Origin: Patescibacteria group bacterium
GTDB taxonomy: Bacteria; Patescibacteriota; Patescibacteriia; Patescibacteriales; Patescibacteriaceae
Assembly: GCA_030583705.1 (NCBI GenBank)
Contig: CP129471.1
Coordinates: 672,506 to 736,505 of the forward strand
DNA length: 64,000 nt
Reading direction: 5' to 3'
Part shown: piece after piece, positions 40,948-49,078 of the stretch
How the letters are laid out: the number at the start of each line of letters is the position of its first letter
How positions within the stretch are numbered: the first letter of the stretch is position 1
Translations under genes and position numbers: made by a program
The notes under the pieces: model-generated
Database searches by the model: none
What the model was told of the DNA's origin: nothing
The model's input: the letters and a program-made list of their open reading frames with translations, nothing else

Positions 40948-42018
40948 TTAATTCTTAATTTCATATATAGCCTCTATTTCTTCGGCAGATAAAACCCTAT
41001 TATAAATACGTACATCATCAATTAAACCGTTCATCCTATAATGTATAGAGCCATCACTACCGATTCTTGGAGAACTTGGAAAAACCACAGCTCCGGCATT
41101 GGTTGTATTAGCTACACCATTTATATACCACTGAGATAAACTGTTTTCATAAACATAAGCTATGTGATGATATTGACCTCTAGGCATTAAACTATCGGAA
41201 AAATGACTACCAGCTCCAACTTGAGCCAACATTCTTCTTCCGCCACTCAGGCTATCAGAAACTGTATACAATAATCTCCCCGATGTAAAACTATTATAAC
41301 CAGTTGCCCCTGTTAAACTATCTCCATCACCTCTAATCCAACCCATGATCGTGAAGCTTGTCATAGAACCTATATTGGGAAGCTGAACATAATCATCAAG
41401 GCCGTTAAAATATGCCGCATAAGTGCCCGCCTTTCCTTCTCCATATCTATTTACAGAAGTTCCGTTCCACGTACCATGATAACCATTACCACTGGAATCC
41501 AAGGCCACCTCCCCACTCCCTTCATTAAACTGCCACCAGCCACGCAAACCAAAATTACCTATTCCTCCCTGAGAAGTAGCGGTATTAATACCAGCTTTAA
41601 CAGAACCAACATCTGAACCCAAGCAAAAGCCCATAGCGTATGATGTTCCACTTGCATTAACTGCATATGAATAATCACTATCTGGACAATCTCCATCCGT
41701 TCTTGGAGTTGGGTTATTAGGTACTTTACTTATATAGATTATATCATTGGCTTCTAAGGGTTGTCCCGGAGTAATAGATGCTGGATATTGATTATTATTA
41801 GCATAGTATAACTCCAAAGCATTAGCCATAGCCTTTAGATCATTCAGTCTTTTAGAATCTCTTGCTTTAGCTCGTGAATTACCAAGCGATACTATGACTA
41901 AAGTAGCTAATATGCCAATGATCGCAATTACAACAAGGAGTTCTATGAGGGTGAAGGCTTTTGCGCTCAGCTTCACCGATTTTTGGATGGTAAAATTTTT
42001 AAGTGTCATATTTTTCAT
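40948..42018 (-). CDS. Type IV pseudopilin with LamG-like C-terminal domain
   Basis: A 356-residue protein. The leader ends KAFTLIELLVVIAIIG with Ala at -1, then the shared stalk (DSKRLNDLKAMANALELYYA, NNNQYPASITPGQPLEA) and a PNNPTP-TDG-CPD block. From about residue 155 it is a concanavalin/LamG jelly-roll domain (GLRGWWQFNEGSGEVALDSSG, DDYVQLPNIG, RIYNRVLSAEEIEAIY). Such domains bind carbohydrate or protein ligands. It lies 6 bases after the preceding LamG pilin gene, so the two are cotranscribed. Confidence 0.87.
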   Translation of the reverse strand: MKNMTLKNFTIQKSVKLSAKAFTLIELLVVIAIIGILATLVIVSLGNSRAKARDSKRLNDLKAMANALELYYANNNQYPASITPGQPLEANDIIYISKVPNNPTPRTDGDCPDSDYSYAVNASGTSYAMGFCLGSDVGSVKAGINTATSQGGIGNFGLRGWWQFNEGSGEVALDSSGNGYHGTWNGTSVNRYGEGKAGTYAAYFNGLDDYVQLPNIGSMTSFTIMGWIRGDGDSLTGATGYNSFTSGRLLYTVSDSLSGGRRMLAQVGAGSHFSDSLMPRGQYHHIAYVYENSLSQWYINGVANTTNAGAVVFPSSPRIGSDGSIHYRMNGLIDDVRIYNRVLSAEEIEAIYEIKN

Positions 42019-42024
42019 ATATAT

Positions 42025-43131
42025 CTATAGTACAAAACGGTCTTTAGTGGCATTGTAATTTTGGAGAATTTCAGATGCGGTAAGTTCTCGATTGTATATT
42101 GAGGTTTGATAAATATTACCGTTAAGCGAACCTTGTGTTGCTGGGCGTCTTTTTCCCATCCAAGTTGTTTCATTTGAAATAGTTGTATCTGTTAAATTAT
42201 TTCCTACAACAACATTATCTTTTAGTATTGAATTAATATATAATTTAACTCCGCTAGCATCTGAACTACCGTCATAACTAACGGACACAAATAAAAATTT
42301 ATTAAGTTCAGATATATCAACATCACGTACGCCAATAAAATTAGTATTAACAGTATTTCTGAAAAAGAAGGTTAAATTACCGTTTGAAGAAATCGCAAAC
42401 TGATACCCCCTGTATGAACCATTCTCATTATTTATAATCTGACTATTAGTAGATTTAACTAACACCCATGATGATAGTGTAAAAGCATCTGTTCTATCAA
42501 ATTGAATTTGATTAGATAGGTTTATATAATCATTCACCCCGTCAAAGACAATACTACCTCCATTATCACTATTAAATATTGGTCCATCTATGAGGGTGCC
42601 GTGATTATTACTTCCACTCAAATCATACCAAGTATTACCAAAACCAGGATAAGAAGCTGGGTTAGAAGCATCTAAGTAAAGAACAAGACCATTAGTCGCA
42701 CCGATAGACTGTAGTCCTGAATTATTAGTAACACTTACTCCTCCTGCTATTAAGTTGCCTTGACTAGATCCTATGCAACTGATAACTGAATAGCTTTGAG
42801 GTGAATTGGAAAGATATCTATATTCTTCATCTGGACAATTACCGTCTGTGTAAGGAGTTGGGTTATTAGGTACTTTACTCATGTAGACTATTCCACCTGC
42901 TTCTAGAGGTTGTCCTGGAGTAATAGATGCTGGGTATTGATTATTATTAGCATAATATAGCTCCAGGGCATTAGCCATAGCTTTTAAATCATTTAATCTT
43001 TTAGCGTCTCTAGCGCTAGATCTTGAATTACCTAGAGCTACTATAACTAAAGTGGATAATACGCCTATGATAGCTATGACTACTAGGAGTTCTATTAGAG
43101 TAAAAGCTTTTTTATTTTGACGATATATCAT
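42025..43131 (-). CDS. Type IV pseudopilin with LamG-like C-terminal domain (first of tandem pair)
   Basis: A 368-residue protein with a very short leader (MIYRQNKKA) before FTLIELLVVIAIIG. The stalk SARDAKRLNDLKAMANALEL is the same as in the FISUMP pilin. The C-terminal half is a LamG/concanavalin domain (NGLVLYLDASNPASYPGFGN, SIVFDGVNDYINL, TSIYNRELTASEILQNYNA). An extended -10 (TG-T-TATAAT on the minus strand, around 43174-43182) lies about 45 bases upstream. Its divergence from the next pilin is mainly in the C-terminal domain. Confidence 0.87.
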   Translation of the reverse strand: MIYRQNKKAFTLIELLVVIAIIGVLSTLVIVALGNSRSSARDAKRLNDLKAMANALELYYANNNQYPASITPGQPLEAGGIVYMSKVPNNPTPYTDGNCPDEEYRYLSNSPQSYSVISCIGSSQGNLIAGGVSVTNNSGLQSIGATNGLVLYLDASNPASYPGFGNTWYDLSGSNNHGTLIDGPIFNSDNGGSIVFDGVNDYINLSNQIQFDRTDAFTLSSWVLVKSTNSQIINNENGSYRGYQFAISSNGNLTFFFRNTVNTNFIGVRDVDISELNKFLFVSVSYDGSSDASGVKLYINSILKDNVVVGNNLTDTTISNETTWMGKRRPATQGSLNGNIYQTSIYNRELTASEILQNYNATKDRFVL

Positions 43132-43598: not shown

Positions 43599-45233
43599 TT
43601 AAATGCCCCTGGCCTCTCCCTGACCATCCGCCGGTGTCCGTGGTTTCTTGCCGGACAAAAGACGACGCTTAACCGCGCTCCAAAGCTCCGAAGCTTCTTC
43701 AACATGTAAAAGAGAACAAACCCCTAAATAAACAACTAAGCCGAAAATTCCGGCCGCCCCACCCTGTAACAAAACTCCCCAAAAACGAGTCATGTCAGCG
43801 ATCGGCCAAACCAAAAGCTTCATGGCTTGAATAGCTACCGCGGCAAACAAAGCAGCCACTGAATATTTTAAAATTGCCATAATAATGTTTTTTTCATCCA
43901 AGCCTCCCAAATTATGCCTTAAGAAAATAAAGAGTAATAAGAATTGCACTATGGCACTTAAAGAGAAAGCCAAAGCTAAGCCGGCTACACCTAAAGACGG
44001 CGCCAACCACCAGGCTAAAAAGATATTAAGCAGTACCGAAAAAAGAGCGGTATAAAAAGGAGTCTTGGCGTCCTGTCTGGCATAGAAGGCTCTTACCACT
44101 AAAGGCAAAGCCGCTTGAGCAAAAAGCGAGATTGAGAAAAAGGCCAGAGTATCAATAGTTAAGATAGTAGCTTGCCAATCAAACTCACCAGAACCTAAAA
44201 TTAAACGAACCAACTGGGCCCTTAAACTCAACATAATAACTGTTACCGGAATAATGAAAAACATTATCTGCCTAAGGGTTTTGGCAAAATAATAAATAAA
44301 ACGACTTGTCCCAACAGTGGAAGATAAAGCCGGGAAAGCGGCGATCGCAAAAGAGATACCAAATATTCCCACCGGAAAAGATTGTAAATTATTAGCCAAG
44401 TTAAAAACAGATAAAGAGCCTGACACCATAGTGGAAGCAATGGCTGTAATAACAATTAAATTAATTTGTGAAACCGCCAAGGCCATAACTCGCGGTGTCA
44501 TTAAAGCAAAAACCGAACGCATGGTCTTATCTTTAAAATCTATAATCGCCCGATAAGCAAAGCCCAAACGATAGAAAGTTGGGAGCTGAACTAAAACATG
44601 AGCTGCTGAACCAATGGCCACTCCCCAAGCTAAACCGCTAATACCATATTGTGGAACCAAATAAAGCGCTCCGAAGATAATACCGAAATTATAAAAAATA
44701 GGAGAAAGAGAATAAGCAAAAAACCGACGATAAGATTGTAAAACACTACCCACAATACTGGAAAGACCCAATAAGAAAGGCGAGATAAACATAATCCTGG
44801 TTAAGGAAGTTACTGTGTCAGCCGCTTCTCCGGTAAAACCCGGAGCCACTAACTTGGTAATCCAAGGAGCCAACCAAACACCGATAACGCAAATAAATAA
44901 AAGCGCTACCGACATGGTATTTAAAATATTGTTAGATAAACGCCAAGCTTCTTTGTCTTGCTTATGAGCCAATAATTTGGAAAAAACCGGAATAAAACCG
45001 GCAGACAAAGCGCCTAAAACTAAAATATTAAAAATAAGGTCAGGTAAACGAAAAGCTGCATAGTAAATATCCAGTGTCTCTCCCGCACCAAAAGAGCCGG
45101 CTAAAATTCTGTCCCTAACCACTCCTAAAACTCTACTCACTACTGATAAAGAAGCAATCACCACCGCCGCACCGGCTACGGTTTCCGCGGCGCCGAATAA
45201 ATTGGCTAATCTTTTTTTTACAAAACCTATCAT
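43599..45233 (-). CDS. murJ: Lipid II flippase MurJ
   Basis: A 544-residue polytopic protein of the MurJ/MviN family with about 14 hydrophobic segments. ASLSVVSRVLGVVRDRILAGSFGAG near the N-terminus is the family signature, followed by AFRLPDLIFNILVLGALSAGFIPVFS. It flips lipid II across the membrane for peptidoglycan synthesis, matching the alanine racemase in the window. The C-terminus has a basic, Pro-rich tail. It starts 14 bases after the mutase-like gene. Confidence 0.93.
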   Translation of the reverse strand: MIGFVKKRLANLFGAAETVAGAAVVIASLSVVSRVLGVVRDRILAGSFGAGETLDIYYAAFRLPDLIFNILVLGALSAGFIPVFSKLLAHKQDKEAWRLSNNILNTMSVALLFICVIGVWLAPWITKLVAPGFTGEAADTVTSLTRIMFISPFLLGLSSIVGSVLQSYRRFFAYSLSPIFYNFGIIFGALYLVPQYGISGLAWGVAIGSAAHVLVQLPTFYRLGFAYRAIIDFKDKTMRSVFALMTPRVMALAVSQINLIVITAIASTMVSGSLSVFNLANNLQSFPVGIFGISFAIAAFPALSSTVGTSRFIYYFAKTLRQIMFFIIPVTVIMLSLRAQLVRLILGSGEFDWQATILTIDTLAFFSISLFAQAALPLVVRAFYARQDAKTPFYTALFSVLLNIFLAWWLAPSLGVAGLALAFSLSAIVQFLLLFIFLRHNLGGLDEKNIIMAILKYSVAALFAAVAIQAMKLLVWPIADMTRFWGVLLQGGAAGIFGLVVYLGVCSLLHVEEASELWSAVKRRLLSGKKPRTPADGQGEARGI

Positions 45234-45246
45234 AATTTTAAAAACT

Positions 45247-46761
45247 TTAAATAAAACTTTTACCGTTCATACTAGATGGCACAGGCAAGCGCAACATACT
45301 TAAAATCGTCGGGGCAATATCTATTAAGGTACCAGTCGGTTGCAAAATACTCAAATCCCCTCCCAAAGGTTCTGGTAAAGACAGCTGCCTACCTTCAAAT
45401 TCTTCGGCAATAATCAAAAAAGGCACTGGATTAACCGTATGAGCCGATCTACCGCCGGTTAAATCAACGGTCCGTTCGGCTATACCGTGACTGGAAGTAA
45501 TTAAAGCAGCTCCACCAGCATCTAAAAGATGGCGAATAATCTTCTTTAAAGCTTCATCAACCGCCAAAATCTCTGTCTTGGTTTTTTCAATATCTCCGCT
45601 ATGGGCCGCTCGGTCTACCGAAGAAAAAGCTATAGCCATAAAATCATAGGCTCCGATATCTATAGCCTCAACTGCCGCCTTAGCTATTTTATCTGGATCA
45701 CTCATAAAATTTTCTTGGTCTAAAGGTAAAAGTAAACTCTCAAGACCGCTTATAAAATCTGTTCTCCCATCATCAAAAAACTCGGTAACCACCGAATAAC
45801 TCTCGCTATCACCCAACCTAATCTGTTTTAAACCAGCCTCAGCCAAGACAGTGCCGAGACAAGCTCTAGTTTCTTCACTAATTTCAGTTACTATAGAACG
45901 GTTCTTATCAGTACCTCTTAAATAAAAAATATTATTTTCTCCGTGTTCCTTTTCCATTAAAAGTCCCAAATTTCTTTGTGAAAAACCTTTATGATTTAAA
46001 AAAACCACCGTCTCATCTTGTTTAATCAAGGAATTTTCATCAGATAACAAAACGGTTGGTGGAAACTCTTCATCAAAAATTTGTTGGCTATAATTTTTAG
46101 TCAAAGCTTCTTCGGCTGAAGGATAAAAACTACCTTCGCCCGAACTTAGTAAACGCCAAGCCTTGGCAACTCTCTCCTTATTCCCTAACTGATCAAGCGC
46201 ATAAAGACGACCGCATAAAGTAGCTAATTTAATCCGTGAATCTTTATTAAGATAAGTCTCTAACTGCGCCACCGCTTCCTTACCAGCCGTCGTCGGAGCA
46301 TCTCTTCCATCCAAAATACCATGAATTAAAATTTCAACATCATTAGGTATTAAAGCAATAAAACTTTTAAGATGCTCTAAAGAAGACTCAGCCTCAGAGG
46401 TGGACAAAAGACTAATCAGGTGTAAACGTTTTTTGGAAGAAGCCGAAGAAATAATCTTGGATAATACTTTATTTTTATTATTTTTCTTTAAAACATTAGT
46501 GGCTGCATTAAAGGTTGAATCATCAATAGCTCCCCTACCTATTAATCTACACCCTCGACGAGTGGAACCAGTATCACCCTTGGATAAACCAATAGAAAGA
46601 CCGGACGCCTCAATCACAGTCGCCGGAAATTTACCAATTAATTCATTAAAGTAAGCAGGTGTAGCTTCAGTAATAGCGTTACCGCTGCCGGCCGGAGCTA
46701 CGCCCCACCCCTCTATAATAATTAACGCCAAAGGCTTTGGTCTTTTGGATAATAAACTCAT
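45247..46761 (-). CDS. iPGM-family (alkaline phosphatase superfamily) protein with degraded active site
   Basis: A 504-residue protein co-linear with cofactor-independent phosphoglycerate mutase (ALIII-GWG, HGILDGRD, D-x3-H in VDRAAHSG, SAHTVNPVPF). Key positions differ: the first metal Asp is E17. The phosphoserine motif GNSEVGHLN reads GSTRRGCRL, putting Thr at T67. TADHGN reads TSSHGI, the VHSH loop is gone, and the RPDR and TEKY motifs are replaced. It therefore should not work as a standard iPGM. It lies 15 bases after pgk, so a glycolysis-linked role remains possible. Confidence 0.75.
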   Translation of the reverse strand: MSLLSKRPKPLALIIIEGWGVAPAGSGNAITEATPAYFNELIGKFPATVIEASGLSIGLSKGDTGSTRRGCRLIGRGAIDDSTFNAATNVLKKNNKNKVLSKIISSASSKKRLHLISLLSTSEAESSLEHLKSFIALIPNDVEILIHGILDGRDAPTTAGKEAVAQLETYLNKDSRIKLATLCGRLYALDQLGNKERVAKAWRLLSSGEGSFYPSAEEALTKNYSQQIFDEEFPPTVLLSDENSLIKQDETVVFLNHKGFSQRNLGLLMEKEHGENNIFYLRGTDKNRSIVTEISEETRACLGTVLAEAGLKQIRLGDSESYSVVTEFFDDGRTDFISGLESLLLPLDQENFMSDPDKIAKAAVEAIDIGAYDFMAIAFSSVDRAAHSGDIEKTKTEILAVDEALKKIIRHLLDAGGAALITSSHGIAERTVDLTGGRSAHTVNPVPFLIIAEEFEGRQLSLPEPLGGDLSILQPTGTLIDIAPTILSMLRLPVPSSMNGKSFI

Positions 46762-46776
46762 AAATAACAGCCTAAC

Positions 46777-47958
46777 TTAAATTGTTAAACGTTTCAAGCC
46801 CGGCATTTTAACACCAGCAATATAAGACACGGAAGCACCACCACCAGTAGAAAGCCAAGAAACCTTACTAACCGCCGCCAAACGTCTGGCGGCCGCCACA
46901 GTTTCGCCCCCGCCAATACAGGTAAAACAACCTTTAGCCGAAGCTTCAACCATGGCTCGGGCAATAACCCTGCTACCCTCTTGTCCGTATTTTTTTTCAA
47001 AAATACCCACAGGACCATTCCAAAAAACCGTAGAGGCGTTAGCAATAATTTTACGATAATTCTCAGCTGTTTTAGGACCTATATCAACAATAACATCATG
47101 CTTGTTTAAGAAACCAACTTTTTTAATTGATTTAACTTTGCCAGATAAAACAGTTAGATCAACCGGCAAAGAAAGTACTTTGTCATAAACCTCGGTCTGG
47201 CGCAAAGTAACACTGTGATCATACAAAGATCCCCCTATCTCATAACCCTTAAAATAAATTTCAGTATTAGCTATGCCTCCACCGATCAGAAGTTTTTCAG
47301 CTTTGGGAGCTAAAGATTTAATTAAAGGTAATTTAGTGCTTATCTTGGCTCCACCCAAAACAACCACCAAGGGTTTTTTAGGACTAATAACATTATTTAG
47401 ATTTAAACACTCTTCCAAAAGCCTAGGCCCGGGATAAACAGGTAAATAATCTGCTATAGCCTCAACCGAAGCATGCGCTCGGTGTGAAACGGCAAAAGCA
47501 TCATTAATATAAACTTCCCCTAAGCGCGCTAAGCGGGCTGCTAGCTTGGAATCATTTTCAGTTTCTCCGGCTAGCAACCTAACATTGGGCATAACCATTA
47601 TTTCTCCAACCTGAAGATCTTTAGCTTGTCTAAGTAAATCGCTAAAATTACCCTCAGCCGAAAAAATCTTTCCTCCCATTTTTTGTTTAAGCCAACGAGC
47701 TAAAGGAGCGGTAGAATATTTAACCGAAGAGAGAGGAGTATTTTTAGGCGGTTGTCCCAGGTGGGTAATAACCACCAAAGGTGAAGATTTTCTTAAAAGA
47801 CGAAGTGTGGGTAAGGCGATACGCAGCTTAAAATCATCAAGTACCTGTCCACCAGCTACTGGTACATTAAGGTCAAGGCGCAAAACTAAACGACTACCAG
47901 CAAAAAGGGATAATCTTTGCTCAAAGGGCTGGCTGGAAAATTTTTTTGTCTTTTTCAT
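46777..47958 (-). CDS. pgk: Phosphoglycerate kinase
   Basis: A 393-residue protein with intact family signatures: RLDLNVPV, VVITHLGQP, YINDAFAVSHRAHASVEAIA, VVVLGGAKISTKLPLI, NGPVGIFE and the nucleotide-binding CIGGGETVAAARR plus STGGGASV. It transfers phosphate from 1,3-bisphosphoglycerate to ADP. The length is normal and no key residue is missing, unlike its neighbour. It lies between the HtrA-like gene and the mutase-like gene on one strand. Confidence 0.95.
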   Translation of the reverse strand: MKKTKKFSSQPFEQRLSLFAGSRLVLRLDLNVPVAGGQVLDDFKLRIALPTLRLLRKSSPLVVITHLGQPPKNTPLSSVKYSTAPLARWLKQKMGGKIFSAEGNFSDLLRQAKDLQVGEIMVMPNVRLLAGETENDSKLAARLARLGEVYINDAFAVSHRAHASVEAIADYLPVYPGPRLLEECLNLNNVISPKKPLVVVLGGAKISTKLPLIKSLAPKAEKLLIGGGIANTEIYFKGYEIGGSLYDHSVTLRQTEVYDKVLSLPVDLTVLSGKVKSIKKVGFLNKHDVIVDIGPKTAENYRKIIANASTVFWNGPVGIFEKKYGQEGSRVIARAMVEASAKGCFTCIGGGETVAAARRLAAVSKVSWLSTGGGASVSYIAGVKMPGLKRLTI

Positions 47959-47998: not shown

Positions 47999-49078
47999 CT
48001 ACAAATCAGCCGCTACCGGTAATTTTTCCAAAACAATCTCCGTAGTTAAATTACTCTCACCCCTTTTAAAAGAAACATTAACTTTGTCTCCAGGAAAATA
48101 TTCTTGAATCAAAGAAGAAAAATTAACAAAGGGTGTTAAGTTTACTCCATCAAAAACGGTAATAACATCACCAGCTCGTAAACCTGCTTTAGCAGCTGGA
48201 CTATTTGGTAAAACAGCTGGTAAATCATTAGCGGTATTAGCTGTTAATAAGATTCCGGTCGGTGCTCCAGAAATAGTCGCTAAGCCTGGCTCAAGATAAT
48301 TAAAGCCTAAAAAAACTCTGTTAATTTCTCCTTTGATTATAAGCTGATCAGCCGCCAAGCGAACGGAGTCAATAGCTAAACTTTTTCCGTCTTTTAAAAG
48401 ACCCATAACTCTACCTTGGCTATCAAAAATAAAAGCGTCAGTTAAAGTAAGCCCATTAATTAAAAGAGGGCGCTCCGGCGAGTCACTGGAGCGAACAAAA
48501 GATAAGGCGCGAGACAACCTAGCAACTTCAGCCTCACCATGCCAACGCAAAGCAATAACTGTCTGTCCTGGAATCAGGTCTCGGCTAGAAACAAAATCAC
48601 GTACCGGCATATTACGAGCTTCTTTTAGTTTTAAAAAGGTTAACCCACTAATAGCGTCAGCTACTACCTTATCTATTTCATAAACTGTTTTATCCGAAGT
48701 TGCCACCCGATAAGAAGAAAAATTTACGGGTATAGATAAATCGGTAGCCAACCAACCATCGCCTGTAATAATCAAACCCTGACCAACAGCTCGTTCGGGT
48801 AAATAAATCTCATCAGTTGCCGGTGCACTAAAAATACCCGACAAAGCTGTCTCAGCCGAGATAATGGCCTGACCAACCTGAACATCTTCTTCAATGACGC
48901 TCTTTTTTGATGACCTAATAACCAAATCGGAATTAAGCGAGCCGTTAACCGGTGCACCGTAATAATAAGTGTCTAAAGCGTACATAAAAAGCCAGTTACC
49001 TAAAATGCCCCCAACAAAGCTGGCAATAATGATTAGGCAAGTTAATAAGATTAAAGGCGTCTTTTCAGAAATTTTCAT
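47999..49078 (-). CDS. HtrA/DegP-like membrane protein with PDZ domain, catalytic residues missing
   Basis: A 359-residue protein with an N-terminal transmembrane segment (about residues 10-32). A trypsin-like domain (residues about 60-250) and a C-terminal PDZ domain (LPNSPAAKAGLRAGDVITVFDG) follow. In active HtrA proteins the His lies in TNxHVV and the Ser in GNSGGPL. Here the regions read GWLATDLSIPVNF and TDAFIFDSQGRVMGLL, with no equivalent His or GxSGG. A scaffold or peptide-binding role is more likely than proteolysis. Confidence 0.78.
   Translation of the reverse strand: MKISEKTPLILLTCLIIIASFVGGILGNWLFMYALDTYYYGAPVNGSLNSDLVIRSSKKSVIEEDVQVGQAIISAETALSGIFSAPATDEIYLPERAVGQGLIITGDGWLATDLSIPVNFSSYRVATSDKTVYEIDKVVADAISGLTFLKLKEARNMPVRDFVSSRDLIPGQTVIALRWHGEAEVARLSRALSFVRSSDSPERPLLINGLTLTDAFIFDSQGRVMGLLKDGKSLAIDSVRLAADQLIIKGEINRVFLGFNYLEPGLATISGAPTGILLTANTANDLPAVLPNSPAAKAGLRAGDVITVFDGVNLTPFVNFSSLIQEYFPGDKVNVSFKRGESNLTTEIVLEKLPVAADL

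Follow-up and report, generated by a model that had tools for sequence, protein, structure and literature searches.

The gene next to pgk in this Patescibacteria genome probably encodes a pseudoenzyme. It is a relative of the phosphoglycerate mutase iPGM that appears to have been displaced by the unrelated mutase GpmA, and retained for a non-catalytic role, most plausibly one in binding. The window, meaning the whole 64,000-nucleotide stretch that was analysed, is G000:C1:672506-736505. The genome is a single 870-kb contig and is 95% complete. Features are listed in Table 1.

Table 1. Features of the locus. Positions are those of the window unless a locus number is given; residues are numbered as in the window protein, or as in Bacillus stearothermophilus iPGM where marked canonical or where a replaced residue is named.
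Feature	Position	Strand	Basis
Probable pseudo-iPGM (P1 lineage), 504 aa	45247..46761	-	family match, residue mapping, tree, insert
Glu17 replacing metal ligand Asp12	46711..46713	-	Glu in all four genus members
Thr67 replacing phosphoserine Ser62	46561..46563	-	residue mapping
Asp383-x3-His387, metal-1 ligands kept	45601..45615	-	residue mapping
Ser424-His425, equivalent to canonical Asp444-His445, Asp lost	45487..45492	-	residue mapping
His441, equivalent to canonical His462, metal-1 ligand kept	45439..45441	-	residue mapping
P1-type C-terminal insert (GRQLSLPEPLGGDLSILQPTG region)	45328..45399	-	shared with intact P1 iPGMs; not in P2 or B. stearothermophilus iPGM
pgk, directly upstream, gap of at most 18 bases	46777..47958	-	PF00162, 321.5 bits
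PDZ-domain protein, conserved first cluster gene	47999..49078	-	locus comparison
murJ, directly downstream, 13-bp gap	43599..45233	-	locus comparison
Degenerate cluster enolases of sister genera	L043:5520-6722, L045:4762-5973, L046:5343-6596, L049:5601-6761		catalytic Glu/Lys/His/Arg lost

The window protein and its genome

The reading frame runs from ATG to TAA with no internal stops. The encoded protein matches positions 1-503 of the 504 in the iPGM model TIGR01307 (250.6 bits, E 2.5e-74), but scores below the equivalog cut-off of 330.65 bits. Both domains of the family are recognised by Pfam (Metalloenzyme, PF01676, 115 bits; iPGM_N, PF06415, 113 bits). Among solved structures, bacterial iPGMs come closest, with an E of 2.6e-55 for the B. 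stearothermophilus enzyme 1ejj. Homology to two-domain iPGM is therefore full-length. A preliminary description of the locus had aligned the protein with all of iPGM and placed its gene beside pgk; both statements agree with these data.

Residues were mapped onto B. stearothermophilus iPGM, whose numbering is quoted first. Metal site 1 of the enzyme consists of D403, H407 and H462, and metal site 2 of D12, S62, D444 and H445; the remaining catalytic residues bind substrate. The window protein has GSTRRGC at the position of the canonical GNSEVGH, so that the phosphoserine is replaced by threonine (S62 to T67). Other replacements are D12 to E17, H123 to E125, R191 to Q191, R261 to K258, R264 to S261, K336 to S321 and D444 to S424. 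Changes at D12, S62 and D444 mean that the protein does not have two complete metal sites, and five of the eight substrate residues are lost. Metal-site residues D403 (D383), H407 (H387), H462 (H441) and H445 (H425) are kept. The motif losses, and the retained D-x3-H and last His, had been recognised earlier. The three surviving substrate residues, R153, D154 and R185, had been omitted. Judged from these residues, the protein would be unable to complete the catalytic cycle of iPGM: the phosphoserine is missing, the second metal site is incomplete and the Arg/Lys/His substrate cage is gone. Homology to an enzyme family is thus combined with loss of required catalytic residues, as in a pseudoenzyme. 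The gene has neither the disrupted frame nor the dN/dS near 1 of a pseudogene. A frameshift or sequencing error was considered as the cause and rejected; the motif does not reappear in either of the other two frames, and the other three genomes of the genus are degraded too.

The preliminary description had warned that glycolysis would be interrupted below 3-phosphoglycerate if no other mutase existed, and proposed looking for GpmA or a canonical iPGM. With both Pfam models, no second PF01676 or PF06415 protein, and so no further iPGM or member of the alkaline-phosphatase superfamily detectable by them, was found in the genome; the window protein is the only one. A GpmA (dPGM) of 218 aa is encoded at G000:C1:602664-603308. 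It scores 289.6 bits against TIGR01258 (cut-off 81.7), carries the catalytic motifs RHGES, NERHYG, WRR and AHGNS, and has 5vve as its best solved match (E 4e-74). A canonical enolase, in which the catalytic and metal residues checked are intact, lies outside the cluster at C1:237608-238417. Hence, the conversion of 3-phosphoglycerate to PEP is encoded in the genome and the anticipated interruption does not arise.

Elsewhere in the window, at 40948-43131, two adjacent genes each encode a lectin-like Laminin_G_3 domain joined to an N-terminal methylation motif of type IV pilin-like character.

An ancestral tandem pair and its repeated dismantling

The locus was compared across 111 genomes of the order. 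Most families that bear iPGM carry two tandem iPGM genes, in the order PDZ-domain protein, pgk, enolase, P2 and P1, with murJ often next. The ancestral arrangement is PDZ-pgk-eno-iPGM(P2)-iPGM(P1)-murJ, and most families still have both iPGMs intact. Outside the affected lineages, nearly every P1 and P2 protein has all 15 catalytic residues. Intact pairs of P2 followed by P1, the norm in the order, occur at loci L059-L078, L082, L083, L085 and L095-L136. A C-terminal insert (GDLSLVQPxG and its flanks) is present in P1 but not in P2.

The window gene has the position of P1 and its insert; enolase is missing from the cluster in the window genus. In a midpoint-rooted tree, P1 and the degenerate copies are separated from P2, B. 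stearothermophilus iPGM and other iPGMs by a bipartition with support of 100/99. Branching order among the degenerate copies is unreadable because of their long branches. Descent from P1 therefore rests on synteny, the insert and this one well-supported bipartition; on that basis the window gene is a descendant of P1.

P1 is degenerate throughout the family of the window genome (f1), wherever it is present, and in one or a few genomes each of families f3, f6, f17 and f19. The active site is dismantled in all four members of the window genus. Position 62 is T, G, S and S in these proteins. Metal-1 ligands are kept in three of the four, and R153 and R185 in all. In the window-genus homologue from G003 the serine and Asp403 survive, alongside the changes D12E, H407A, D444S, H445N and H462S. 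In G007 (f1, genus g4) the serine and all metal ligands are kept and the changes are H123Q, D154E, R261L and R264G. Conversely, G033 (f6) keeps its substrate residues except R153, and has lost the serine, H407, D444, H445 and H462. Such opposite patterns of decay must reflect no fewer than two independent inactivations. The copies of f19, like those of f1 genera g3 and g5, are without the transferase domain (262-306 aa); in g5, nearly every catalytic residue is gone as well. No iPGM copy was detectable by the order-wide comparison in genus g6 (G012).

A degenerate P1 is almost always accompanied by another mutase. GpmA is encoded in 12 of the 13 f1 genomes; it was not found in the 50-contig assembly of G010. 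Genomes of f3, f6, f17 and f19 with a degenerate P1 have an intact P2 or a further iPGM. In family f15, iPGM occurs in nine genomes and GpmA above the cut-off in 27 others, with no overlap; here the displaced iPGM was lost cleanly. In some GpmA proteins, namely those of genus g5 and some of f15 (L196, L205), the sequence is ASGNS or ASGNN instead of the expected AHGNS, which contains the second catalytic His. AHGNS was also not found in the GpmA loci L197, L202, L204 and L207.

The cluster enolase is degenerate in f1 genera g2, g3 and g4 (for instance E209F, K342T/R, H370N/Q/S, R371G/D/A and S372D/Y/I), and each of these genomes encodes a canonical enolase elsewhere. The g4 pair of degenerate enolases has a dN of 0.18 and a dS of about 2. 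The cluster enolase of g5 is intact. It is conceivable, but on balance doubtful, that iPGM and enolase, which act at successive steps of glycolysis and share a cluster in family f1, both became pseudoenzymes once isofunctional replacements were present, and were retained as non-catalytic subunits with an organising or regulatory role in glycolysis, the dead scaffolds of a former 3PG-to-PEP complex.

Selection, predicted fold and competing explanations

Degenerate P1 proteins are maintained by purifying selection, although dS is saturated within the window genus. Its four members are 34-40% identical and the frame is open in all of them. A codon model put omega for the pseudo-iPGM of this genus, where pairwise dS is saturated and the estimate depends on the model, at about 0.09; the values for pgk, murJ and the PDZ gene were 0.06, 0.05 and 0.11. 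Fixing omega at 1 was worse by 186 log units for the pseudo-iPGM. Less saturated ratios were obtained for copies of g4 (dN 0.208, dS 1.04), truncated copies of g5 (dN 0.132, dS 0.804; codon-model omega 0.17 from three sequences) and truncated copies of f19 (dN 0.222, dS 1.57), which belong to sister genera or another family and may serve another end. Overall, dN/dS is about 0.09-0.20. The pseudo-iPGM gene evolves faster than pgk and murJ; given this, and the lack of a detectable copy in g6, the protein is dispensable somewhere.

Intact P1 proteins share 171 invariant columns. The four genus members all retain 53 of these without change, and 113 vary. The same new residue is found in all four at two catalytic columns (D12E and H123E). 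Catalytic positions have been lost at about the same frequency as other positions that were once invariant. Thus, selection protects something other than catalysis.

The C-terminal segment is better kept in the window protein (19 of 23 positions, p=0.0007). Intact iPGMs of other groups show part of this trend, so the insert was set aside as the uniquely protected part of the protein and stays a lead. The last metal-ligand His is followed by a strand, and this in turn by the insert. In cyanobacterial iPGAM, a loop at the corresponding position affects control by PirC (PMC12077085). By analogy, the P1-type insert might offer a contact surface, for which it is a plausible candidate.

AlphaFold2, using an alignment of the window protein, its genus and intact P1 proteins, predicted a structure with a pLDDT of 81 and a pTM of 0.68. 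Foldseek superposed this model on iPGM 1o98 with a TM of 0.80 (E 1.5e-40). The homologue from G003 was predicted with a pLDDT of 86 and a pTM of 0.77 despite loss of most metal ligands. Intact iPGMs in such alignments bias predictions towards the canonical fold. The window protein is thus predicted still to fold like iPGM.

Because an iPGM-like fold is predicted and purifying selection is evident, we infer that the protein may act by binding a partner protein or ligand. The gene is derived from the downstream member (P1) of the ancestral tandem iPGM pair in a Falkowbacteria pgk-eno-iPGM-iPGM cluster. GpmA, which is present and can convert 3-phosphoglycerate to 2-phosphoglycerate, may then have left iPGM catalysis free to be lost.

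Four other explanations were weighed against this one. That the protein has kept or gained a different activity, for instance as a phosphatase or phosphotransferase with one metal held by Asp383, His387 and His441 and Thr67 as nucleophile, is unlikely. The three metal ligands do survive in the window protein and two relatives, so residual metal or ligand chemistry is possible, and the retention of R153 and R185 across the genus fits such a role, as does G007, where only substrate residues are lost. Against this, the nucleophile position varies within the genus, G003 has lost H407, D444, H445 and H462, and the g5 copies are under selection with nearly all catalytic residues and the transferase domain gone. 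The roughly equal loss of catalytic and other formerly invariant positions also argues against it. A Thr67-dependent phosphatase or transferase, which the preliminary description had offered as one option, is thus unlikely as the conserved function, given how this position and most metal ligands vary between relatives. Its other option, a pseudoenzyme, is well supported by the residue losses, the parallel decay in relatives, the replacement mutase and purifying selection.

Slightly less probable still is plain decay, with a gene displaced by GpmA and caught before its loss having no present function. Fast evolution, heterogeneous damage, the domain deletions of sister genera and the missing g6 copy would all be expected of such a gene. 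Conversely, a neutral simulation of the window frame with 0.2 substitutions per site already introduced about 10 stops, whereas the frame is open in all four diverged genus members. The low dN/dS, the confident fold prediction for G003 and the clean loss of displaced iPGMs in f15 also speak against decay. It is improbable that only the open frame matters, with translation through it needed for expression of downstream murJ by coupling or polarity. The short gap to murJ, and the presence of murJ as the next downstream gene in 11 f1 loci, suit this idea; an open frame alone would not conserve amino acids, as a dN/dS of about 0.1 indicates, and murJ does not come after P1 in several other families. 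Finally, it is scarcely credible that the protein is a working mutase with catalytic residues supplied from elsewhere. Its full-length iPGM fold and its R153, D154 and R185 speak for this reading, but the serine, H123, R191, R261, R264, K336 and D444 are replaced, alignments reveal no alternative residues, and the genome has GpmA. We therefore favour a displaced pseudoenzyme with a probable binding role.

Implications and comparison with known systems

The distribution of iPGM and dPGM is patchy, and whether dual-mutase bacteria are in mid-displacement has been left open (Foster et al., 2010; PMC2964296). Phosphoglycerate mutase and enolase are likewise patchy across CPR bacteria (Jaffe et al.; PMC7304191). 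Family f1 bears on the question of Foster et al. because it displays stages of displacement side by side: metals without a substrate pocket in g4, a half-dismantled protein in the window genus, domain-deleted copies in g3 and g5, and no copy in g6. Its sister family f15 adds clean loss. In the open-access literature searched, we found no iPGM pseudoenzyme, no inactive enolase of the kind described here and no study of Falkowbacteria mutases. Testable non-catalytic roles of glycolytic proteins are indicated by the persistence, in streamlined genomes of some 0.9 Mb, of a 504-aa glycolytic protein that is dead yet under selection, joined in three sister genera by a degenerate enolase. For annotation, similarity alone would label the degenerate genes as active mutase and enolase.

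The window protein resembles GpmI/iPGM (TIGR01307, PF06415 plus PF01676; B. stearothermophilus 1ejj and 1o98) in full-length homology, two-domain fold and position next to pgk. It differs in having replacements of the phosphoserine, of D444 and of five of the eight substrate residues, a Glu for D12 and a score below the curated cut-off. With the intact P1 iPGMs of Falkowbacteria-related Patescibacteria (e.g. L113, L095 and L103) it shares locus, C-terminal insert and side of the tree; those proteins have all 15 catalytic residues and usually lie beside an intact P2. Cyanobacterial iPGAM carries its PirC-responsive loop at a position matching the P1 insert, but is an active enzyme and has another loop sequence (PMC12077085). 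Catalytically dead regulatory paralogues are known from trypanosomatids, as the AdoMetDC prozyme (PMC5201418), and for DHS (PMC3663545). In these systems, as here, a dead enzyme copy is retained. However, the prozyme and the dead DHS paralogue act on an active homologue, whereas the window genome has no active iPGM and its mutase is the unrelated GpmA.
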